This document shows positions 7,008-27,901 of a stretch of DNA of 64,000 nucleotides, piece after piece. Numbering within the stretch: position 1 is the first letter of the stretch; the number at the start of each line of letters is the position of its first letter. Source of the stretch: Halorubrum depositum (GTDB taxonomy: Archaea; Halobacteriota; Halobacteria; Halobacteriales; Haloferacaceae); contig NZ_VCNM01000001.1 of NCBI RefSeq assembly GCF_007671725.1, positions 868,001 to 932,000 on the forward strand. The letters run 5' to 3'. Both the position numbers and the translations under genes were made by a program. The notes beneath the pieces are model-generated. The model made no database searches and was not told where the DNA came from. It saw only the letters and a list, made by a program, of their open reading frames with translations.

Positions 7008-7238
7008 CCCCGACCCGTTCGCCGCGCACGGGCCGCCGACGGTCGAGAACGAGCGGCGCTGCGGACACGCACCAGTCGGGGCCGATCTGAGATCCCGCGA
7101 GTCCGTTCGAATCGCGGGACGGCCGCGGATTTCGTCCAACGAACGAGCGGACATCGACCGGTTCGGTGAAGGAGGCGCTGCGGGGTATCCAGCGTTATTC
7201 TGTGGATAGTTATGCCGCTGTTCGAGCGAGTACACCTC

Positions 7239-8654
7239 ATGAGTGCAGATCGGGTTAACGTCGTCTGGATAACCCTCGAGAGCGTCAGAGCGGCGAACTC
7301 GTCGGTATGTGGGTACGACCGCGAGACGACCCCGAACCTTGAGCGGATCGCGTCAGAGCCCGATGGGACAGCGTTTCAGCACTGCTTCTCGCAGTCGATG
7401 TGGACACCGGCGTCGAGCGCCTCCATCCTCACGGGGACGTATCTGTTCGAACACCGAGTCGGGTACGACGGGAAGGCGAAGGAGCCGCTCCCGCCGGAGA
7501 TAGCCACCCTTCCCGAACTGCTACGAGATCGGGGGTACCAGACCGCGTGTTTCACGCCGAACGCCTATCTCAGCGAGGCGACGGGGCTCGATCGGGGGTT
7601 TGAGAGATATCACCACGCCTTGCTCCGTCGCGCGTTTCACGAACCGGAAACGCGGACGGCGGCGTTAAAGTACCTCTTGCGCGCCTGGGAGTACGGCCCC
7701 GGATTCTCGCTCAACGTGCGGCGGCACAACCAGACGTACATCATGCGCGAGGTCCTGAAGGGATGGCTCGACGAGTTCGCGGCCGACGACGACCCCTTCT
7801 TCCTCTACACGCACTGTCCGAACCCGCACCTCCCGTACGCGCCGCCGCGGAAGTGGATCGATCGGTTCACCGACGAGATCGATTTCTCGACGAGCGAGGC
7901 GCTGGAGCTGTCGCTGGAGACGTACGCGAGCCGGGACCGGATGATCCAGCGCATCGTCGACGGGTGCCCCTTCTCCGAGGACGAGTGGGAGGCGCTCGAA
8001 GCGATGTACGACGCCGAGATAGCGTACGCGGACGAGTTCGTCGGGGCGCTGTACGATCACGTACAAGAGCTGACCGACGGTGAGACCGTCTTCGTCGTCA
8101 CCGGCGACCACGGCGACCTGTTCGGCGAGCAGGGCGTGCTCGGCCACAACCTCGTCCTCGACGACCATTTGACGAACGTGCCGATGGTCGTCTCCGGGAT
8201 CGGGGGACTGGAGCACGCGCGAGACAAGGTCGTCCAGCACATCGACGTCACGCGGACCCTCGCGGAGCGGCTCGGGGTCTCTCACGACCAGTTCAGCGGT
8301 GTCGATCTACGAGACGCCACCCCCGACGGCGCGATCAGCCAGCGGGGGATCCCGCACTTCGACGAGTACCTGGAGGCAGACCCGGAGTTCGACACCTCCC
8401 GGTACCACGAGACGCCGATGACGGCGTTCCGCACGGACGAGTTCAAATACGTGAAGGGGTCCGAGAAGGCGGAGCTGTTCAGACTTCCGGACGAGGAGAC
8501 GGAGGTGGGCGACGAGTATCCGGCGGTCCGCGACGAGCTCGACGAGCGCCTAGAGGCACGGCTTCTGGACATGACCACGCCGGAAGCGGGGGAAGCCGAG
8601 GCGACGTACTCCGCCGCGATGGAACAGCAGCTCACCGACCTCGGCTATCTCTGA
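7239..8654 (+). CDS. Sulfatase-like AP-superfamily protein with Thr nucleophile
   Basis: A 471-residue protein from the ATG at 7239; another in-frame ATG at 7212 would add nine residues. It has the sulfatase fold pattern: N-terminal NVVWITLESVR, GYDRETTPNLERIA, WTPASSASILTG, and VTGDHGDLFGEQG with metal-binding Asp-His. The position that is Cys or Ser (formylglycine precursor) in true sulfatases is Thr, in W-T-P-A-S-S. The first metal ligand, normally Asp in VDxLR, is Glu in TLESVR. No signal peptide or membrane segment is present. Thr is the nucleophile in LtaS/phosphoethanolamine-transferase and NPP relatives, so phosphotransfer or phosphodiester cleavage is as likely as sulfate ester cleavage. 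It ends LTDLGYL. Confidence 0.8.
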   Translation: MSADRVNVVWITLESVRAANSSVCGYDRETTPNLERIASEPDGTAFQHCFSQSMWTPASSASILTGTYLFEHRVGYDGKAKEPLPPEIATLPELLRDRGYQTACFTPNAYLSEATGLDRGFERYHHALLRRAFHEPETRTAALKYLLRAWEYGPGFSLNVRRHNQTYIMREVLKGWLDEFAADDDPFFLYTHCPNPHLPYAPPRKWIDRFTDEIDFSTSEALELSLETYASRDRMIQRIVDGCPFSEDEWEALEAMYDAEIAYADEFVGALYDHVQELTDGETVFVVTGDHGDLFGEQGVLGHNLVLDDHLTNVPMVVSGIGGLEHARDKVVQHIDVTRTLAERLGVSHDQFSGVDLRDATPDGAISQRGIPHFDEYLEADPEFDTSRYHETPMTAFRTDEFKYVKGSEKAELFRLPDEETEVGDEYPAVRDELDERLEARLLDMTTPEAGEAEATYSAAMEQQLTDLGYL

Positions 8655-15520: not shown

Positions 15521-17476
15521 ATGTCTTCCGATCACGACCCAGAGCCGGTCGAGGCGGCTCCCACGGGTCCCACGGAGTTCGCGAGCGTGTCCAGGCGCTC
15601 GGTTCTCAGGGCCGTCGGTGCGGGGGCGGCAGCACCGCTCCTCGCAGGCGCGTCGAGCAGAGCGTCGAGCGCCGCGTCCGATTCGTGGACGATAGTCGCG
15701 CTCCCGGACACGCAGTACTACGCGAACAACGAGCGCCGGTACCGGTTCGCCGTCGACCAGACCGACTGGATCGCCGAGAACGCCGACGCCGAGAACATCG
15801 CCTTCGTCAGCCACGAGGGCGACGTCGTCCACGAGGGCGACCAGACGGAGCAGTGGGACCGAATGGACGACGCGATGGCGACGCTGGACGGCGTGGTCCC
15901 GTACAGCACGCTGCCGGGCAACCACGACTACGCCGACACGCGGAATCGAAGCTCCGGGCTCGACAACTACGTCGACTACTTCGGCGCGTCGCGGTTCGAT
16001 GGGTATGACTGGTTCGGCGGGACCGGCCCCAGTGACGAGGAGGCGAACTCCTACCAGCTGTTCTCGGCGGGCGGGTACGACTTCCTCCACCTCGCGTTAG
16101 AGTGGGAGCCGCGCGACGAGACGCTCGAGTGGGCACGAGACGTGCTCGACCGGTTCCCCGAGCGACCGGCCGTTCTCACGACTCACGCGTACCTGACCGA
16201 CGGCGACAGGGAGGGCGGCGACGAGTCGAATCCGGGACGAGCGCGGTTCATCGAGGAGGAGAACGGGGACGGGAACTCGGGCGAACAGGTGTGGCGGAGG
16301 CTCGTCGCCCCGAACTCCCAGGTGTTCATGGTTCTCAGCGGCCACTTCCACGAGAACTTGAATCAGGACGCGGATCCGCAGACGAGCGGCGAGTACCACC
16401 AGGTGTCCGAGAACGACGCCGGAGAGGACGTCTACGAGATGCTCGCGAACTACCAAAAGAGGGACGGATCGGGGTTCAGTTTACTCAGGCGGATCTCGTT
16501 CGAGCCGGGGAGCGGTGACCCGGATCGGATCAGCGTCAGCACGTACAATACGTATAAAGACGAGTACGAGACCGACGACAACAGCGAGTTCGCCTTCGAT
16601 CTCGACTTCGACGAGCGGTTCGCACAGGAGTCGTCGACGGATCCCACCGAGCGCTTCTCCTTCGAGCAGGGCGCCGACGGCTACGAAGGGACGAGCGACA
16701 CTAACCTCCGCGAAGCGAACCCCCAGACCGGATACGGCGACGCCTCGACCGTGACGGTCGACACCAAGGAACCGCAGGACTCGGATAATCGCGCGCAGGC
16801 GCTCGTCCGGTTCGACGGCGTGATCGGCGATGGGGACGGACAGGTCCCGCCGAACGCGACCGTGAACTCGGCCACGCTGACCGTCGAGACCGTAGACGAG
16901 GGGAGCGGCGGTGCGGTACACCGACTGCTCAGAGAGTGGAGCGAGAGCGACACCTGGGAATCGTTCGGCGGCGGCGTCAGCGCCGACGGCTCCGACGCGA
17001 CCGCGGACCCCGAAGCGAAGGCGGAGGCCGTCTCGGAGGGGCCGACAGAAATCGACGTCACGGCCAGCGTCCGGGAGTGGGTCGGCGGCGAGCCCAACCA
17101 CGGGTGGGCGATCCTTCCCCTCGGCGACGATGGGTGGGACTTCTCGACCGCCGAGGGCGACGCGCCGCCGCAGCTAACCGTGACGTTTGAACCCGGCGAC
17201 GGCGGCGATGACGATAGCGAGGACGGCACCGGCGACGGCAGCGATGGCGGTGACGGCACCGGCGACGGCGGAGACGGCGGGGACGAACCGAACGAACCAC
17301 TCCCCGGCGACGCGGACGGCGACGGCGACGTAGACGATGCCGATGTCGATCTCGCCCAGCGACACGTCGCAAACGAGGACGTCGACATCGACCGCGAGGC
17401 CGCGGACATGGACGACGACGGTGAGATCGACATCACGGACGTCGTCGAGATAGTCGACGAGACGGGAGGACGATGA
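15521..17476 (+). CDS. Tat-exported metallophosphoesterase with DNRLRE module and dockerin
   Basis: A 651-residue secreted protein. A Tat signal is at the N-terminus (SRRSVLR, residues 24-30, then a hydrophobic AVGAGAAAPLLAGA stretch). Residues ~55-370 are a calcineurin-like phosphoesterase: PDTQYY, GDVVHEGD, LPGNHDY, TTHAY and SGHFHEN give the metal ligands. Residues ~380-560 match a DNRLRE/CBM96-type beta module (ALVRFDG, VTASVREWV, NHGWAILP). An Asp/Gly linker follows. Residues ~596-651 are a type I dockerin with two calcium loops, GDADGDGDVDDADV and ADMDDDGEIDITDV. The stop overlaps the ATG of the cohesin gene, so the two products are made together and are expected to bind each other. Confidence 0.9.
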   Translation: MSSDHDPEPVEAAPTGPTEFASVSRRSVLRAVGAGAAAPLLAGASSRASSAASDSWTIVALPDTQYYANNERRYRFAVDQTDWIAENADAENIAFVSHEGDVVHEGDQTEQWDRMDDAMATLDGVVPYSTLPGNHDYADTRNRSSGLDNYVDYFGASRFDGYDWFGGTGPSDEEANSYQLFSAGGYDFLHLALEWEPRDETLEWARDVLDRFPERPAVLTTHAYLTDGDREGGDESNPGRARFIEEENGDGNSGEQVWRRLVAPNSQVFMVLSGHFHENLNQDADPQTSGEYHQVSENDAGEDVYEMLANYQKRDGSGFSLLRRISFEPGSGDPDRISVSTYNTYKDEYETDDNSEFAFDLDFDERFAQESSTDPTERFSFEQGADGYEGTSDTNLREANPQTGYGDASTVTVDTKEPQDSDNRAQALVRFDGVIGDGDGQVPPNATVNSATLTVETVDEGSGGAVHRLLREWSESDTWESFGGGVSADGSDATADPEAKAEAVSEGPTEIDVTASVREWVGGEPNHGWAILPLGDDGWDFSTAEGDAPPQLTVTFEPGDGGDDDSEDGTGDGSDGGDGTGDGGDGGDEPNEPLPGDADGDGDVDDADVDLAQRHVANEDVDIDREAADMDDDGEIDITDVVEIVDETGGR

Positions 17477-19149
17477 CCCGACGAATCGGCGTCGGCGGTC
17501 TGCGCCACGCGACCGTCGTCGTCGTGACGACGGCGCTGCTCCTCGGAGCGGCCCTCTCGGGCGCCACCGTCGGCGTCGTCGACGCGGACGGGTCGTCGGT
17601 CGCGGTCACCGACGGATCGGGCGGGAGCGCGGTCGAAGCCGCCCCCGGCGAGACGGTCGCGGTGACGGTCGGCGCGAACGCGTCGAACGTGAGCGCCTAC
17701 CAGGCCAATCTCACCTTCGACCCCGACGTCGTGCGGATCGTGTCGGTGTCGGGGACCGACGACTTCGACGACCCCGTCGCCAACGTCGACAACGAGAGCG
17801 GCTGGGTCGCGTTCAACCAGTACCGGTCCTCGAACGCCACCGATCCGCGGCTCGCGACGGTGACGCTAGAACTCGTCGGCGGCGCCGGGAACGAGACGAC
17901 GCTCGCGTTCGCGGAGTCCGATACGAAACTCGCAGACGACGCGGCCCGGGAGCTGGGCATCGACGGGTACGGCGATCTGACCGTCATCGTCGAATCCGAT
18001 TCGAGCGGTGACGGCGGAGAGGGGAGCGACGGTGGCGACGGTAGTGACGGCGGCGATGGTGGTGACGGCGGTGACGATGGTAGCGGCGGCAGCGATGGTG
18101 GTGACGGCGGTGACGATGGTAGTGACGGTAGCGACGGTGGCGACGGCGGTGACGGCGGTGACGATGGTAGTGACGGTAGCGACGGTGGCGACGGCAGCGA
18201 CGGTGGCGACGGCAGCGACGGTGGCGACGGCGGCGACGGCGGGTCAGGAAACGATGGCGATAACGACGGCGGCGATGACGACGGAGGCAACGGCGGCGGG
18301 AGTCCGGGCGGCGGAGCGAGCGGTGGGGGGACGAGCGGGGGAAGCGCCGGTGCCGATGAGAACGACGAGGCGCCCGAAGGTCCCCCGCGCGTCGCCGCTC
18401 ACACCGCATCGATGAACGGCGAGGCGTCTATCGTGACGACGTTCGACGGGATCAGCCCGACGATCGAGCGCGTCGAACTCCTGTTCGAGGCGGCCGTCTC
18501 CGGCGAGTACGTCACGACGGAGTTCGAACGGCTTCCGACCGACCTCGCAGACTCCAGGGGCGACGCCGACGACGTCCTCACCGTGATCGAGTTCGGCGCG
18601 CCGGACGGGTCCGAGGACGCGCCGGCGGAGCTGGTCCTCGCGCTCAATCGGAGCGCGGTCGACGCGTCCGATCAGAGCGTCGACGGCCTGCGGATCGAGC
18701 GCTACGACGAGGCGACCGGACAGTGGGTAGGGGTCGACGCGGCGGTCGACGGTTCGGACGAGGCGACCGTGACGCTCACCGCCGCTCCGTCACGCCTCGG
18801 CTGGGTCGTCGTTTCGGCGGGGAATTCGTCCCGGACGGACGCCGCGGCCGACCCCGCGAACGGTACCTCGGCCGGATCGGACGGAGATGCGGACGGCACG
18901 GCCGAGGGCTCCGACGCGACGAACGGGACGGTTGGCGACGCCGACGGAAAGAACGGGGCGGCGGACAGCTCCGACGGAACGACGGGCGACTCTGGCACGA
19001 CAGCGGGCGACTCCGGAGCGACGAGCGACTCGTCTACCGAGGGTCCCGGCGTCACCCAGTCGGAGGTGCCGGGATTCGGCGTGACGAGCGTCCTCGCCGC
19101 CGGCGCGCTGCTGTACGGGTTCCTCCGTTTCGGACGCCGGACGCGATAG
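17473..19149 (+). CDS. Cohesin-domain surface protein with PGF-CTERM-like anchor
   Basis: A 558-residue exported protein starting within the stop codon of the dockerin gene. A hydrophobic Sec-type signal covers residues ~10-35. Residues ~37-177 are a cohesin-like beta-sandwich (GETVAVTVGANASNVSAYQ, LTFDPDVVRIVSVSG, LATVTLELVG). A ~110-residue linker of Asp-Gly-Gly and Ser-Asp repeats follows. Residues ~305-455 match the PGF-pre-PGF domain found before archaeal C-terminal anchors (ASIVTTFDG, RIERYDEATGQWVGVDA). A Thr/Asp/Gly-rich stretch leads to VPGFGVTSVLAAGALLYGF plus basic residues, a PGF-CTERM-like sorting and lipid-attachment signal processed by archaeosortase. It would hold dockerin-bearing proteins at the cell surface. 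Confidence 0.88.
   Translation: MTRRIGVGGLRHATVVVVTTALLLGAALSGATVGVVDADGSSVAVTDGSGGSAVEAAPGETVAVTVGANASNVSAYQANLTFDPDVVRIVSVSGTDDFDDPVANVDNESGWVAFNQYRSSNATDPRLATVTLELVGGAGNETTLAFAESDTKLADDAARELGIDGYGDLTVIVESDSSGDGGEGSDGGDGSDGGDGGDGGDDGSGGSDGGDGGDDGSDGSDGGDGGDGGDDGSDGSDGGDGSDGGDGSDGGDGGDGGSGNDGDNDGGDDDGGNGGGSPGGGASGGGTSGGSAGADENDEAPEGPPRVAAHTASMNGEASIVTTFDGISPTIERVELLFEAAVSGEYVTTEFERLPTDLADSRGDADDVLTVIEFGAPDGSEDAPAELVLALNRSAVDASDQSVDGLRIERYDEATGQWVGVDAAVDGSDEATVTLTAAPSRLGWVVVSAGNSSRTDAAADPANGTSAGSDGDADGTAEGSDATNGTVGDADGKNGAADSSDGTTGDSGTTAGDSGATSDSSTEGPGVTQSEVPGFGVTSVLAAGALLYGFLRFGRRTR
18004..18246 (+). repeat. Degenerate tandem repeats coding for the Gly/Asp linker
   Basis: Units built from GGTGACGGC, GATGGTAGTGAC and GGTAGCGAC hexamers to dodecamers are repeated many times within the cohesin gene, in frame, and encode D-G-G/S-D-G. 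Longer blocks of about 50 bp recur, so replication slippage can change the linker length without breaking the frame. Confidence 0.8.
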
Positions 19150-19229: not shown

Positions 19230-20453
19230 TCAGTCGGCGGTGTGGGCCTGCTTCCGATCGGGGAGGGATTCGATACGCTCGACGATCTCGCGGTCGATCC
19301 CCTCCGCGTTCCAGTCCGCGGTGCGCGGAATCCACGCCTGATAGGTGTCGACCTCCTCGAACAGCTGCCGGAACGCGTCCTCCTCGGCCTCGACCACCTC
19401 CTCCAGCTGGTCGGCGAAGGAGGGTCCGGGACAGAGCGCGTCGTACGCCAGGAAGTACTCCTCGAGGAGCTCGTTCCACTCGTAGTAGCTGATCGCGTTG
19501 ACCTCCGTCACCATCCGCTCGGCCGACAGTTCCTCGACCGAGACGTGGTCCTCGTTCGGCGCCGCCCTGAGAGCGACGACGTTGTCCACCGTCGACTCCG
19601 GGACGTGTTCCGAGCGCGGAAATATCTCCGAGACGTCCGTGAACTCCCGGCCCTGCTCTGCGAGGAACCTCTCGCTGAGGAAGCTGATACCCTTATGAAC
19701 GACGCTGTCGCCCGCGTTCACGTTCACCTCGATGAACTGGCTCACCTCGTCGCGGATCTTGTCCTGGACGTCGTCGTGTTCGACCTCGATCTCGGGGAAC
19801 GATCGGATGTTGTACGGCTGGAGATTCACCGACAGCGGGTAGCCGAGAGCGGTTCCGTCCGTGCCGACCCACAGGCGATCGTCGGAGAGGTACCCCGCTC
19901 CCTCCCGCAACAGCGAGAGGAGGGTGTTCGTCTTCCCGCCGCCGCGCCAGGCGGGGAACAGCGTCGTCTCCCCGTTCAGCTCGATTCCGGACGCGTGAAC
20001 GAGCGCCCGCCCCTCCTTCGCGAGCTCCTGTCTGATCCGGAACTCGACGGGATACGTCGCCTTGAACGGCTCCCAGTTCGGCGACACGTAGATGTGGTCC
20101 CACCCCGGTTCGACCGCCATGAAGTTCGAGCCGCTCCGAACGACGAACCGATCGCCGGTCCAGCCGTAGTGGTCGGAGGGGTCGCCGAGGACCGCGTCGA
20201 GCTCCGGCTCCTCCGTCGTCCGCTCGACCACGACGTCCGGCTCGCGTCCCGGGTCTTCGACCTCGAAGTGGTCGAACATCGTGTAGAACTGCTGAGTGGA
20301 GCGCCCGCCATCTCCGCGAACCTCTAGCAGCACCGATCCGAAGAAGTCGTAGTAGTGTCGTCTCATCACTACGGCGCTCCGATCAGGTAGCTGGGTCGAG
20401 GCAACGTCACGTGCGACTGTTCGCCGAATCGTATTCTTCGAAACATCTGACAC
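19230..20453 (-). CDS. HprK-like P-loop protein of unknown function
   Basis: A 407-residue cytoplasmic protein. Residues 166-176 (FPAWRGGGKTN) form a Walker A-like loop and LSDD at 189-192 a Walker B-like site, in the order and spacing seen in HPr kinase/phosphorylase-type proteins and in related PqqD- or lasso-peptide-associated kinases. The N-terminal half (residues ~31-150) is alpha/beta with no assigned family. The GTG at 20451-20453 is favoured because a TATA box at 20481-20488 lies ~30 bp upstream; the ATG at 20366 is the alternative. No HPr or other PTS protein is visible here, so the phosphate acceptor may be a glycan precursor or a protein. Function is unknown. Confidence 0.65.
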   Translation of the reverse strand: MSDVSKNTIRRTVARDVASTQLPDRSAVVMRRHYYDFFGSVLLEVRGDGGRSTQQFYTMFDHFEVEDPGREPDVVVERTTEEPELDAVLGDPSDHYGWTGDRFVVRSGSNFMAVEPGWDHIYVSPNWEPFKATYPVEFRIRQELAKEGRALVHASGIELNGETTLFPAWRGGGKTNTLLSLLREGAGYLSDDRLWVGTDGTALGYPLSVNLQPYNIRSFPEIEVEHDDVQDKIRDEVSQFIEVNVNAGDSVVHKGISFLSERFLAEQGREFTDVSEIFPRSEHVPESTVDNVVALRAAPNEDHVSVEELSAERMVTEVNAISYYEWNELLEEYFLAYDALCPGPSFADQLEEVVEAEEDAFRQLFEEVDTYQAWIPRTADWNAEGIDREIVERIESLPDRKQAHTAD

Positions 20454-20743: not shown

Positions 20744-21490
20744 ATGCCTGAACTCAGCGTAATCGTCCCCACCCTCAAGCCGAGAGACGAGATCGAGTCC
20801 GTCGCGAGGCTCGAACGACACGAGTTCACCGACTACGAGGTGCTCGTCCAGGACGAGAATTCGGCGACGAAGGCCAGAAACGAGGGGATCCGGCGGGCGA
20901 GCGCGGAGAAGCTCGTGTTCCTCGACGACGACTCGCTGCCAGTCGAGGGGTACCTCGAACGGGTCTCCGACCTGTTAGAGCGCGAAGCCGTCGTGACGGG
21001 GAAGATAATTCACCCGCACAACGACGTCATCGAGCGGTTCACGAGCCACTACGACATGGGATCGAAGCCCCGCTACGTCACTCGGTTTTGGGGCTGCAAC
21101 GCGGCCTGCAGAAAGGAGGTGTTCGACGACGCCGGGATGTGGAACGAGGCGATTACGTGGGGCCACGAGGAGAAAGAACTCGCCGAGCGGATACTGAACC
21201 ACTACCCGATCTACTACGACCCCGAACTGCTCGTGTATCACGTCTACGCCGACTCAGTGGTCGACTACTGGCGCAAGCAGTACAAGCTGGAGCTACAGAC
21301 GCCGTACCTCTGGGAGCAGGACGGCGTCCCCTCGTCTCGTCAGTACTTCCGGACGCTGCAAACGGTGGTGAACCCGATGAACTACGTGGGGTTCTCGCCG
21401 AAGCACACGCTCGTTCGGTCGGGCGGGAACCTGATGCGGTTCGCGGGCCGCGCGGTCGGGATAGCCCGGCGGTCGGGCGCCGAGGAGTAA
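20744..21490 (+). CDS. Family 2 glycosyltransferase
   Basis: A 248-residue GT-A fold enzyme. LSVIVPTLKPRDEI starts the nucleotide-sugar binding domain, KARNEGIRRAS follows, and LVFLDDDSLPVEG carries the DDD metal-binding motif. RFWGCNAACRKEVFDDAG and GHEEKELAERI are the usual acceptor-domain signatures. No membrane segment is obvious, so it likely works at the inner face of the membrane on a lipid-linked acceptor. The sugar donor cannot be predicted. It stands alone on the plus strand between minus-strand genes. Confidence 0.88.
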   Translation: MPELSVIVPTLKPRDEIESVARLERHEFTDYEVLVQDENSATKARNEGIRRASAEKLVFLDDDSLPVEGYLERVSDLLEREAVVTGKIIHPHNDVIERFTSHYDMGSKPRYVTRFWGCNAACRKEVFDDAGMWNEAITWGHEEKELAERILNHYPIYYDPELLVYHVYADSVVDYWRKQYKLELQTPYLWEQDGVPSSRQYFRTLQTVVNPMNYVGFSPKHTLVRSGGNLMRFAGRAVGIARRSGAEE

Positions 21491-21559: not shown

Positions 21560-23206
21560 CTACTCCATGTACCCCAATCCCCGCAGCCGGTCCTCGACCT
21601 CGTCGAAGTCGCCGTCGACCTCCCCTTGCGGCTCTCCGGCGTCGTACTCCGCGGTCCGGACGGGCCTCTCCGCGGCGGGCGATCCGGCCGCGAGTATCTC
21701 CTCGATCACGCCGCCGTCGGCGTGCGACGGCACCGGGCGATCGAGCAGGTGCAGGAGAGTCGGGACGAGGTCGACGGCCGAGGCGTCCGCCGGCCGCGAC
21801 TCCGCCTCGATACCGGGGCCGTGCGCGAAGAAGATCCCCTCCGATTCGTGGTCCGCGGCCTTCTGCGGGACGGTGAACGGCTCGTCGGCGAACTGCCAGT
21901 TGACCGTGTAGCCCTCGATCGACTCGATCAGGAGGTCCGGTTCGAGCGTGTCGCCGTCGGCGGACGCTTCGTGACCGGGACCGTCCGCGTCGGGCTTTTC
22001 GTCGCCGGTTCCGTCTGCACCGGCCCTCCCGCGGTCGGGGTCAACCACGACGAGCGGCCGGTCGCCCGTCTCCGGGTCCCGGACGTTCTCGAGGAGTTCC
22101 GTCACCCGGCGTTTGACCGCCGGGACCTCCGAGGGGGGAACGGTCCCCGACGCGAACCGTTCGGTGTCGTTGACGTAGACGCTCCCGAGCCCGTGGAGGA
22201 ACGCCTCGGTGTGCGAGAAGTCGGCGTCGTACAGCGCGTGGTCGCCGGGAATACGGGTCGCCGCCTGGCTGATCAGTCCCTCGGGGAGGTATCGAACCAG
22301 CGTCCCCTCGTCGACGCCGACCCGCTTCAACGCCGCGAGCACGTCGTCTTTATCGAAGCCGACGGTAGACATGACGCCCCGCACTCCCCCCTGCTCCTGC
22401 CGCGCGATGAGCCCCTCTCGACGGAGGATCTCGTTGACGTTCACCTGGCGGGAGACGGGGCCGAAACCGTGGTCCGAGACGACGAAGAGGACGGCGCCGG
22501 CCTCCTCGCACCGCTCGACGACTTCGGCCAGCAGGTCGTCGAGCTCCTCGTAGTGCGCCTTGAGCACCGCCTCGTCCCAGATGAGATGTTGGAGTCGATC
22601 GGGCGCGGTGTACACGAAAAAGGAGAGCGTCCAGTCGGTCCGTTCGAGGAGGACCCGCATGAGCTCTCGACGGTCCGACAGCATACCGTCGAGCGCGTCG
22701 AGGAACGCCTCCCGCCGGCCGAAGTACTCCTTCCAGTCCAGCCCGATCTCGTAGTCGGGGATCCGACGGTCGATCGCCGCCCCGAGCTCCGGGGGGTACG
22801 TGAACGCCGAGGCGTCCTCCGGCGTCATCATCCCGGTGGCCATCTCGCCGTCGAACTCCCGAGCGGGGAACGTCATCGGGACGTTGCCGACGACGGCCGG
22901 CGAGACGATGTCCCAGATCGCCGGTCGGCTCCGGTCCGCGCCCGTGTTCGGGCGCTGCCCGTACCGGCGGTTCAGCTTCATGAACTCGAACAGCCCGTGG
23001 CCGGCGGGGTCACAGCCGGTCGCTATCGACGGCCACGCGACCGGCGTGTTGGCCGGAACCGTACTCGCGAACGGTCCCGCGGCGCCCTCCCGCCGGAGCC
23101 GCTCGAACGTCGGGAGGTCCCCCTCGTCCATCCACTTCTCGACCAGCGACCACGGGACGCCGTCCAGTCCGAGGACGAACGCCCGTTCCGGCTCGGACGC
23201 GGTCAT
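21560..23206 (-). CDS. Type I phosphodiesterase/nucleotide pyrophosphatase-like protein
   Basis: A 548-residue AP-superfamily protein of the NPP branch. AFVLGLDGVPWSLVEKW holds the first metal Asp, ANTPVAWPSIATGCDPAGHG contains the Thr nucleophile (N-T-P), and LFVVSDHGFGPVSRQVNVN supplies the Asp-His metal ligands. A long Asp/Gly/Glu-rich insert sits near residues 390-420 and is probably a disordered haloarchaeal loop. It ends LRGLGYME, the tail shared with other proteins in the window. No signal peptide is seen. The substrate may be a phosphodiester in a glycan, lipid or nucleotide-sugar. Confidence 0.85.
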   Translation of the reverse strand: MTASEPERAFVLGLDGVPWSLVEKWMDEGDLPTFERLRREGAAGPFASTVPANTPVAWPSIATGCDPAGHGLFEFMKLNRRYGQRPNTGADRSRPAIWDIVSPAVVGNVPMTFPAREFDGEMATGMMTPEDASAFTYPPELGAAIDRRIPDYEIGLDWKEYFGRREAFLDALDGMLSDRRELMRVLLERTDWTLSFFVYTAPDRLQHLIWDEAVLKAHYEELDDLLAEVVERCEEAGAVLFVVSDHGFGPVSRQVNVNEILRREGLIARQEQGGVRGVMSTVGFDKDDVLAALKRVGVDEGTLVRYLPEGLISQAATRIPGDHALYDADFSHTEAFLHGLGSVYVNDTERFASGTVPPSEVPAVKRRVTELLENVRDPETGDRPLVVVDPDRGRAGADGTGDEKPDADGPGHEASADGDTLEPDLLIESIEGYTVNWQFADEPFTVPQKAADHESEGIFFAHGPGIEAESRPADASAVDLVPTLLHLLDRPVPSHADGGVIEEILAAGSPAAERPVRTAEYDAGEPQGEVDGDFDEVEDRLRGLGYME

Positions 23207-23493: not shown

Positions 23494-24894
23494 TCAGAGG
23501 TACCCCAAGTCCTCCAGCTGTTTCGCCATCTCCGGGCTGAAATCGGCGGTCCGTTCCCGGGAGTCGCCCGGCGCGCCGTGCGTCGCGAGCCACGAGTCGG
23601 TCTCGCCGGCCAGGCGCTCGGCGACGTCGGGCGCCGACTCGGAGACGTCGGCGGACTCGTCGGGCAGCCGAAAGAGGTCCGCGCGATCGTCGCCGCGCTG
23701 GTACCGGTGCTCCGTCGTCCGGGCGCTGGTGACGACTCCGGTGAGGAACCGACTCGCGTCGAACGACGGGTTATGCCGGCGGAGCTCCTCGATCTTCGTC
23801 GCGCTTCGCGGTTCGCCGCGCTGGGTGAACGCGACCGCTCTGGGGTCGGTCCGGATGTCCCGTCCGATCGGGACCGGCACGTCCAGTCCGAGCTCCGCGA
23901 CGATCGTCCGCATCACGTCGGCGTGTTGGACGACGCCCGAATGATCGCCGGAGAGGCCGTCCAGCCCCGCGACGACGAGCGGGACGTTCGTGACCGCCGT
24001 ATGCGTCGACAGCATGTGCGCGAGCAGCCCCTCCTCGCCGAAGAACTCGCCGTGGTCGGCGGTGACGACGATTATCGGGTCGTCGAGCTCGGTCCGGGCC
24101 GTCTCGACGATGGACTCGGCGACGGCGTCGACGTACGCCAGCGACGTGTCGTACATCACGTCGATCGCGTTCCACGTCTCCGCGTCGAACGGGAGCCCGT
24201 TAGCGATGTGTTCGTGGATCCGATCGGACATGTCGAGCGACGCGGCGAGGGCCCGATCCATCGACGCGTCGAGGTCGTCCTCGAACCGGTCGCGCCAGCC
24301 CTTCGGCGGGTAGTACGGGTGGTGGCTGTCGCCGAGGTGCGCGTAGAGGAAGAGCGGGTCGTCGCCGCCGGACGCCCGGCGGACGTGGCGGCTCGCCAGC
24401 GCGTCGATCATGTAGCCCGTGCTGTGTTTCCTCGTGTCGGTCGTCCAGCCGGCCGAGTGGCGCCGGAGGTTCAGGAAGTACTTCGCGAGGATACGCGGAC
24501 CGACCTGTTCGAGGAGCTGGTCTTTGCCGAGGTAGTGGAAGCGCTCGAACCCGCGGTCGAGACCGGTCGCGGCGCTCACCTGTGCGATCGGGGAGACGCC
24601 GACCGTCCGGTAGCCCGCGTCGCGAAGCCCCTCCGGGATCGTCGGGATGTCGTCCGAGAGCGCGAGCTCAGTCGACCACGTCCGGTGATTCGAGGGGGCG
24701 CGGCCGGTCAGGATCGACGTCGACGACGGCCGGGTCCAGACGGCGTGAGTGGTGCAGTTCTCGAACGCAGCGCTGTCGTCCTCGCTCGCGAGCCGGTCGA
24801 GGAACGGCGTCGTGTCGCGCTCGTGGCCGCCGACGGACGTCCGGTCGTACCGGACGCTCTCGAGCGTGAGCCACACGATGTCCCGGTCGGGCAT
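23494..24894 (-). CDS. Sulfatase-like AP-superfamily protein with Thr nucleophile
   Basis: A 466-residue relative of the protein at 7239. It begins DIVWLTLESVRYDRTSVGG, where Glu replaces the usual metal-binding Asp, continues with RDTTPFLDRLA, and has HAVWTRPSSTSILTG, where Thr replaces the formylglycine Cys/Ser. VTADHGEFFGEEG holds the second metal site. The start at 24892-24894 is backed by a TATA box centred 28 bp upstream. The tail is QLEDLGYL. The conserved Glu and Thr changes in two paralogs suggest a distinct subfamily, perhaps a phosphotransferase or phosphodiesterase acting on the surface glycan. Confidence 0.82.
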   Translation of the reverse strand: MPDRDIVWLTLESVRYDRTSVGGHERDTTPFLDRLASEDDSAAFENCTTHAVWTRPSSTSILTGRAPSNHRTWSTELALSDDIPTIPEGLRDAGYRTVGVSPIAQVSAATGLDRGFERFHYLGKDQLLEQVGPRILAKYFLNLRRHSAGWTTDTRKHSTGYMIDALASRHVRRASGGDDPLFLYAHLGDSHHPYYPPKGWRDRFEDDLDASMDRALAASLDMSDRIHEHIANGLPFDAETWNAIDVMYDTSLAYVDAVAESIVETARTELDDPIIVVTADHGEFFGEEGLLAHMLSTHTAVTNVPLVVAGLDGLSGDHSGVVQHADVMRTIVAELGLDVPVPIGRDIRTDPRAVAFTQRGEPRSATKIEELRRHNPSFDASRFLTGVVTSARTTEHRYQRGDDRADLFRLPDESADVSESAPDVAERLAGETDSWLATHGAPGDSRERTADFSPEMAKQLEDLGYL

Positions 24895-26225: not shown

Positions 26226-27434
26226 CTAGGCTTCGATGTCTCCTACTTTCGACACCACGTGCCGCCGCTCCGTCTCCGTCGCCTGTTCCCGTTCGACGAC
26301 CGAGCGCCCGACGTCGTAGAGCGAGTGGTCGTCGTCCTGTCGCTCCCACGAGCCGTCGGTCCGAACGGCGACGGTCTCCCCGTCCGTCGTCCGTTGATAC
26401 CGCCAGTCGCGGCCGCGGACGACGCGCATCCCGTCGTTGTTCCGAGTGGTCACGTACGGGCGTTCGACCGTCGGCCGGTCTCCGGTCGCGAGGCCGGTGA
26501 GCAGCTCCGGAATCGATTCGAGCGAGACCGGGTCTTCGACGCGCTCGGTGGGGACGTTTCCGACGACGAGGGGAACGTTGATGACCGACTCGTGGAGGTA
26601 GCCGTGGCCGTACCGATCCTCCTCACCGAACAGCTCCCCGTGGTCCGCGTGGACGCAGACGATAGAGTCGTCGCCGACGTCGTCGAGGAGAGTAGCGACG
26701 AACTCGTCGGTGTACTCGACCGTCCTGTCGTACGCCGCGAGGAGTCGGTCGCGGAACAGCGGGCTCAGTCGCTCGTCCGCGCCGCCGAAGAGCCAGGCGT
26801 TCGCCGCGTAGGTCAGCGGCCAGAAGGAGAGGTACTCCCTCGGCGGAATGTACGGCATGTGGACGTCGACGAGGAACACCCAGAGGAAGTACGGCTCGTC
26901 GGCGGACCGTCGCCACCGCTCGATGTCGCCGTAGAACGACTCCCACGACATGAACATCTCCTGTCCCGCCCACCAGTCCGCGAGCCGCGTCGCCGTCTCC
27001 CTGAGAGGGCCCGCGTCGTCGCCGTCGCCGTCGCGGAACCGGTTCGACGTCGTCTCCTCCATGAAGTCCTCGAAGCGGTCGAACCCCTTGTCGAAGCCGA
27101 ACGACCGGGACGTCCACGGGTTCGCGGTGAACGCGGCCGTCTCGTACCCCTTCCGTTTGAACCGTTCGGCGAGGGTGTCGCGGGCGCGGACCTGACCGCG
27201 GATCGAGTCCCGACGGTCGGCCTCCGGACGCGAGAAGGGATAGCCGCCGGTGATAAAGGAAGTCGAGGAGCCGCGAGTCGAGCCGGCAGGGGCGATCGCG
27301 TTGTCGAACTGGAGCCCCCCCTCCGCGAGTTCGTCGATGGTCGGCATGAGGGTACTGTCGTACCCGAGGTGACCGCAACGGTCGGCGCGGAGACTGTCGA
27401 CCGTGACGAGCACGACGTTCCGTGGATCAGCCAT
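26226..27434 (-). CDS. Sulfatase-like AP-superfamily protein
   Basis: A 402-residue protein with NVVLVTVDSLRADRCGHLGYD (canonical metal Asp retained), AGSTRGSSTSFITGGYPF (Thr where sulfatases have Cys/Ser), and VHADHGELFGEEDRYGHG. It differs from the 7239 and 23494 paralogs in keeping the Asp and in lacking the LGY tail: it ends VGDIEA. A TATA box at 27461-27469 is ~31 bp upstream of the ATG. No signal peptide is present. It may be a cytoplasmic phosphoesterase or a glycan-modifying transferase; a true sulfatase activity would be surprising. Confidence 0.82.
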   Translation of the reverse strand: MADPRNVVLVTVDSLRADRCGHLGYDSTLMPTIDELAEGGLQFDNAIAPAGSTRGSSTSFITGGYPFSRPEADRRDSIRGQVRARDTLAERFKRKGYETAAFTANPWTSRSFGFDKGFDRFEDFMEETTSNRFRDGDGDDAGPLRETATRLADWWAGQEMFMSWESFYGDIERWRRSADEPYFLWVFLVDVHMPYIPPREYLSFWPLTYAANAWLFGGADERLSPLFRDRLLAAYDRTVEYTDEFVATLLDDVGDDSIVCVHADHGELFGEEDRYGHGYLHESVINVPLVVGNVPTERVEDPVSLESIPELLTGLATGDRPTVERPYVTTRNNDGMRVVRGRDWRYQRTTDGETVAVRTDGSWERQDDDHSLYDVGRSVVEREQATETERRHVVSKVGDIEA

Positions 27435-27679: not shown

Positions 27680-27901
27680 ATGAGCACCGAGGCCGACAGC
27701 CGGACCGTGACGATAGAGGGTCACCTCTACGAGCGCGTCGAACGGCGTATCGCGAATACGAACTTCGAGTCGGTGGACGAGTACGTGACGTTCGTCCTCG
27801 AGGAGGTCTTGGCCAGCGACGAGGCCGACGCGGCGTACGAGGACGTCGACGACGACGACGTCCAGGCGCGGCTGCGCTCGCTGGGCTACTTGGACGCGTA
27901 G
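27680..27901 (+). CDS. Small ribbon-helix-helix-like protein with an LGY tail
   Basis: A 73-residue acidic protein. The first 45 residues (TVTIEGHLYERVERRIANTNFESVDEYV and FVLEEVL) read as one beta strand and two helices, the pattern of CopG/RHH dimeric domains. The remaining part is Asp-rich and ends ARLRSLGYLDA, the same tail found on the AP-superfamily proteins and the CysD-like enzyme. It overlaps the end of the convergent GT4 gene by 16 bp. A DNA-binding regulator is one option, a protein-protein adaptor that gathers tail-bearing enzymes is another. Neither has direct support. Confidence 0.65.
   Translation: MSTEADSRTVTIEGHLYERVERRIANTNFESVDEYVTFVLEEVLASDEADAAYEDVDDDDVQARLRSLGYLDA

Follow-up and report, generated by a model that had tools for sequence, protein, structure and literature searches.

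The window, a 64,000-nucleotide stretch of the Halorubrum depositum genome, carries adjacent genes for a kinase-like protein of predicted HprK/PEPCK fold, a secreted metallophosphoesterase with a dockerin, and a cohesin protein, and very probably the kinase candidate and the phosphoesterase, which would be docked at the surface, form a real functional module. The new part is the pairing of the kinase-like gene with a cohesin-docked phosphoesterase; no description of the trio, or of such a module, was found in the open-access literature searched under the trio, HprK-related kinases and haloarchaeal cohesins. In Halobaculum halobium the trio is on a plasmid and its members are annotated as a hypothetical protein, a DNRLRE protein and a cohesin protein, so the link is easily overlooked.

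The kinase-like gene lies on the minus strand at 19230–20366. Its reading frame is open over 407 codons, as far as a GTG at 20453, and includes FPAWRGGGKTN followed by LSDDR. The gene caller and the homologues agree on an ATG at 20366, which is the likelier start because the homologues begin at a conserved M-x(4)-YDFFG; the gene is real, with that ATG as its best start. The first-pass annotation had given a 407-residue protein, which is correct for the extent of the open frame, and the start supported by homologues shortens it to 378 amino acids. It had also noted RGGGKT and LSDD motifs with HprK-type spacing, and here it was right: a histidine at K-21, the P-loop lysine and two aspartates at K+17/+18 have the spacing of the HprK structure 1jb1 and are kept in every one of the 22 family members in the alignment, where identity to the window protein ranges over 31–72% for the remaining 21. 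The family also has an invariant FPAWR ahead of the P-loop and an invariant DDR, and in 22/22 members the first glycine of the Walker A motif is replaced by alanine (PAWRxxGKT). Another HprK-like protein of haloarchaea (L010) can be aligned to 1jb1 with no gap, and the corresponding spacings in 1jb1 are 21, 17 and 18. Within Halorubrum the family is patchy, with matches in 3 of the 34 other genomes of the genus (G014, G025 and a relic in G010).

Pfam found no match in the window protein, any HprK domain included, and TIGR00679 likewise did not match it. The NCBIfam model HprK_rel_B does match its P-loop region (1.8e-5, 24 bits where the cut-off is 200), and it matches all 22 family members (best 2.7e-8); PF07475 matches one of the 22, at 0.024. 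The HprK signature motif, which is RGxGII-like, is missing from 22/22 members, and a search of PDB sequences with the window protein (P0001) and with a 22-row profile gave chance matches only. For three of the 22 there is a weak match (0.0036) to the model of the phosphonate-monophosphate kinase FomB. The structure model, built from nine sequences, has a mean pLDDT of 63; its N-terminal part is poorly modelled, worst at residues 49–104, which fall below 50. All 13 Foldseek matches to this model at E<=0.001 are PEPCK, with HprK/P next. VIA-align gave Z up to 10.8 against PEPCK (193 residues, 4.2 A) and 9.6–9.8 against HprK (130–139 residues, 3.5–4.3 A), and over 997 chains 132 reached Z>=8 while a single one fell between 5 and 8, leaving a clear gap. 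The comparison with HprK and PckA that the first-pass annotation had proposed thus has PEPCK and HprK as the best fold matches, and these matches rule out a fold that lacks the P-loop. Profile kinship, residue spacing and the predicted fold together make membership in the PEPCK/HprK superfamily well supported for the modelled protein, and within this known fold it represents a distant branch.

The metallophosphoesterase gene (15521–17476, plus strand) encodes a 651 amino acid calcineurin-like protein (PF00149, 4e-9) with a CBM96/DNRLRE domain (PF24517, 5.2e-8; NF033679, 1.2e-18) and a C-terminal dockerin (PF00404, 0.0014) that scores over the profile cut-off. Its N-terminus is, by eye, of the twin-arginine type, as are those of its homologues wherever the start is complete, and CBM96/DNRLRE is present in many of the latter. 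The metal-ligand positions are kept in 19/19 homologues except for one His-to-Thr change. The nearest predicted folds (pLDDT 57) are purple acid phosphatase and Mre11/SbcD, bar a first match to the integrative model 9a6c; this fold would suit a monoesterase. Overlapping the end of this gene is that of the cohesin protein (17473–19149, plus strand, 558 amino acids; PF00963, 1.5e-9), whose place beside the kinase-like gene had been correctly recognized before; by eye it has a signal-like N-terminus, a low-complexity linker and a hydrophobic, PGF-like C-terminal tail, and at E<=1e-4 the source genome has no other cohesin match. The dockerin has duplicated calcium-binding loops, and the dockerin profile of the metallophosphoesterases matches solved dockerins. 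Eighteen of the 19 linked metallophosphoesterases end in a dockerin, and the same 18 have a cohesin gene directly behind them on the same strand with the frames overlapping or abutting; the one without a dockerin, at L068, is also without a cohesin gene. Of all the hints from the loci themselves, this joint presence (18) or absence (1) speaks most strongly for docking of the pair. We note that the source genome has three further dockerin-type domains (L072, L073 and L074; G000:C1 at about 334700, 851900 and 105960), visibly of a different type and carried by proteins of secreted type in which repeat or CARDB-like stretches can be made out by eye.

Gene calls were made in 25 loci, comprising the window, nine named loci and fifteen of twenty others (the five excluded duplicate named loci), with our own codon-bias script; some cohesins that it missed were recovered from the reading frames. 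The kinase-like cluster was found in 23 of these loci, seven of them from the Haloarcula lineage (three of the seven placed by likeness), and the other two hold a fragment and a broken copy. The secreted metallophosphoesterase adjoins the kinase-like gene in 19 of the 25. Thirteen loci have kinase-like, metallophosphoesterase and cohesin genes in tandem (fourteen with L068); the kinase-like gene is convergent with the cohesin gene in the window, L013 and L057, divergent from the metallophosphoesterase gene in L067, and last, behind both partners, in L064. Linkage that persists through four arrangements is not frozen synteny. A gap of about 150–410 bases with TATA-like stretches (by eye) follows the kinase-like gene, and the metallophosphoesterase–cohesin pair looks like a transcription unit of its own, which counts against joint action with the kinase candidate. 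The trio adjoins a GTP-binding protein gene and other unrelated genes in Haloarcula and sits within a glycan island in three Halorubrum loci; no gene cluster besides the metallophosphoesterase and the cohesin recurs across lineages in the 25-locus survey. The neighbourhood survey suggested by the first-pass annotation therefore names as steady partners a dockerin-bearing metallophosphoesterase, which that annotation had missed, and a cohesin; the glycan genes are not among them.

Across 391 genomes of the haloarchaeal class, 21 have both the kinase-like and the metallophosphoesterase gene, four only the former, six only the latter and 360 neither (Fisher p 1e-25, which ignores phylogeny). Kinase genomes are here those with a match at E<=1e-30 (25 of 39 listed at 1e-4, counting the relics in G010 and G350; the 14 excluded have short matches to paralogues or fragments), and metallophosphoesterase genomes those at E<=1e-20 (27). 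The two genes are neighbours in 20 of the 21 shared genomes and about 30 kb apart in G364. Their protein distances are correlated (r 0.91 over 19 loci, 0.76 over 12 thinned loci; Mantel, which ignores phylogeny), and species history alone could explain part of this. Both proteins of Halorubrum sp. CSM-61 (L020) are nearest to those of a Halobaculum locus (L058) and not to those of its genus mates, which speaks for joint transfer. Against tight coupling speak the four kinase-only genomes, G318, which has the metallophosphoesterase and cohesin and no kinase-like match, and G010 (L083 9527–11886, G010:C25), where the kinase-like gene is a relic and the cohesin and dockerin-metallophosphoesterase frames are open, in the order seen in the window.

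The surroundings in the window are those of a glycan island. Divergent from the kinase-like gene is a small GT2 glycosyltransferase gene (20744–21490, plus strand; PF00535, 3.1e-8; cluster c12, 6 loci), followed by a type I phosphodiesterase/AlkP-superfamily gene of the glycan locus (21560–23206, minus strand; PF01663, 2e-35). The latter is one of four AlkP-superfamily (sulfatase/phosphodiesterase) genes within about 20 kb of the island (with 7212–8654, 23494–24894 and 26226–27413), none with a signal peptide evident by eye. A 73-residue protein (27680–27901) has no NCBIfam match and is found beside sulfatase genes in related islands; in its L081 and L083 relatives the C-terminus reads RLxSLGYL, an ending known from sulfatases. 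When a glycan context is defined as two or more glycosyltransferase or flippase genes at a locus, 8 of the 23 kinase-like loci pass, two are partial and 13 are outside such a context, a figure that is partly self-matching since the marker profiles were derived from module loci. Divergent and arbitrary sets are the fairer comparison, and here 9 of the 16 divergent-relative loci pass (a set to which G037 and G238 each contribute two loci and in which two contigs are short) against 1 of 20 arbitrary 20-kb stretches. Two HprK-like relatives from outside the class lie in glycosyltransferase clusters with GT4-type genes adjoining, and one of them, in L100, abuts an AlkP-superfamily phosphodiesterase gene. 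The wider HprK-like clade thus leans to glycan clusters, and many lineages of the window's family lie outside them; the earlier suggestion that the protein may belong to an HprK-like group associated with peptide and glycan clusters is supported as kinship, with the context of the relatives in its favour.

Two other observations concern HprK-like genes elsewhere. In L081 (9247–14363; G037:C1, about 2193200–2198400) another HprK-like gene precedes one for an asparagine synthetase resembling lasso cyclases (NF033535, 418.7 bits, cut-off 525), and next come a beta-helix protein that bears both cohesin and dockerin and then a second cohesin. This is a second case of an HprK-like gene near cohesins, and the synthetase is a possible lasso-type enzyme in a haloarchaeon. 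In L089 and L090, from two genomes, a further HprK-like paralogue is a few genes from a sugar-nucleotidyltransferase-like gene (by eye), a pairing reminiscent of the kinase–nucleotidyltransferase pairs in RiPP clusters.

How might the module work? Kinase activity of the HprK-like protein is predicted and seems fairly probable, and the protein could act in the cytosol as an ATP-dependent kinase of PEPCK/HprK fold, in partnership with a phosphoesterase on the outer surface. The cohesin protein would be anchored in the envelope and hold the metallophosphoesterase through its dockerin; the kinase would phosphorylate a hydroxyl of a molecule on its way to the surface, where a glycan precursor is a likelier target than a serine in a protein; and the docked phosphoesterase would later remove or process that phosphoester outside. 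We put the probability that envelope docking, phosphorylation inside and processing outside all hold at roughly one in three. A tentative possibility is that these parts amount to a cross-envelope phosphate writer and eraser in haloarchaea, a transferable three-gene module in which an HprK-fold kinase inside the cell phosphorylates a polymer or protein destined for the surface and a phosphatase, moored outside by a private cohesin–dockerin pair, takes that phosphate off or processes it. We lean slightly towards a glycan precursor, in view of the context of the clade and of the domain of carbohydrate-binding type that many of the phosphoesterases carry; given the 8 passing loci, a glycan substrate is not implied at every module locus. 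The idea in the first-pass annotation that the protein acts on a carbohydrate or protein of the surface locus may be right.

Protein serine stays a strong rival because characterized HprK-like enzymes act on proteins or peptides; in PMC13381572 and PMC7533575, such kinases modify a serine of precursor peptides. By this account a serine or threonine of the phosphoesterase or of another exported protein is phosphorylated before export, much as HPr is by HprK and lasso precursors are by HprK-like kinases, the phosphoesterase being the natural candidate if it is exported folded by Tat. That the kinase-like gene is repeatedly linked to a gene for one exported protein agrees with this account, which we nevertheless consider unlikely: no conserved precursor peptide gene was found near the kinase-like gene across lineages among 328 short frames flanking the kinase-like and phosphoesterase genes, the comparison of which linked different lineages through just two isolated pairs (the first within the cohesin region, the second antisense in the gap that precedes the phosphoesterase), and neither RRE/PqqD-like nor cyclase genes were found among the scanned window neighbours. 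A salvage pair, in which an external phosphoester is cleaved by the surface phosphoesterase and the small molecule so released is taken up and phosphorylated again by the kinase, would follow a common logic of kinase with external phosphatase; PEPCK-fold enzymes can act on small molecules, and the weak FomB matches point the same way. It is improbable, however, because only the phosphoesterase and the cohesin recur across lineages, hence no transporter, and because the CBM96/DNRLRE domain in many of the metallophosphoesterases points to a polymer.

The alanine in Walker A and the relic, broken or fragmentary copies in G010, G350 and G363 would suit an ATP-binding protein that has degenerated or serves regulation, its tie to the module being one of sensing and not of catalysis; retention of the histidine, the lysine and both aspartates in every member at 31–72% identity to the window protein is unusual for a dead enzyme, and we rate this account as quite improbable. 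Least likely is a true HPr kinase that phosphorylates the HPr of the genome at the serine matching Ser46 and so controls sugar uptake. The first-pass annotation called the protein one without HPr, which is true locally; elsewhere, on another contig, the source genome does encode an HPr (PF00381, 1.1e-23), followed by an enzyme I-like frame (by eye). HPr was detected in 184 of the 391 genomes and is somewhat commoner in those with the kinase (18/25 against 166/366; p 0.008, which ignores phylogeny), but the same excess is seen for metallophosphoesterase genomes (22/27) and probably reflects taxonomy. Seven of the 25 kinase genomes have no HPr match, G141, G237 and G356 among them with the complete module, so HPr is unlikely to be the general substrate; with HprK profiles below cut-off and the signature missing as well, an HPr kinase in the strict sense was rejected. 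A phage or defence gene was also rejected, since viral contigs hold no relative and PADLOC gave no match.

Cohesins are common in haloarchaea (141 of the 391 genomes), and to our knowledge the cargo that they assemble is mostly unknown. Here both the cargo of one cohesin pair and an intracellular enzyme linked to it are defined, and three cloned genes suffice for a test; if true, the proposed scheme would be the first pathway for archaeal HprK-like kinases.

Among known systems, the bacterial HPr kinase/phosphorylase (1jb1, from Lactobacillus casei, and 1ko7) shares with the window family the predicted fold and the gapless H-21-K-17/18-DD spacing, and differs in that the Walker A of the window family reads AWRxxGKT, the HprK signature is missing, the partners are a phosphoesterase and a cohesin, and HPr is not always present. 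The HprK-related kinases B and A (TIGR04355 and TIGR04352) share profile matches, B with all and A with 21 of the 22 family members; the window protein, however, reaches 24 and 15 bits where 200 are required, over about 60 residues. Kinase B is partnered by GAK-system genes such as an ATP-grasp enzyme, none of which is present among the ten window neighbours scanned. The lasso and RiPP kinases of the PadeK/LppK type, as described in PMC13381572 and PMC7533575, resemble the haloarchaeal protein as stand-alone HprK-like kinases in clusters for an exported product; the haloarchaeal module, by contrast, shows no precursor peptide, RRE or nucleotidyltransferase in our scans, and a lasso-type cluster in the window was rejected. 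A further paper, PMC13260240, concerns glycosaminoglycan breakdown and has no bearing on the kinase. Our last comparison is with the non-cellulosomal cohesin–dockerin pairs that archaea possess. The likeness lies in a dockerin borne by an enzyme, a cohesin on a surface-type protein and genes that lie side by side; what sets the module apart is that the docked enzyme is a phosphoesterase and that a kinase-like gene travels along with the pair.
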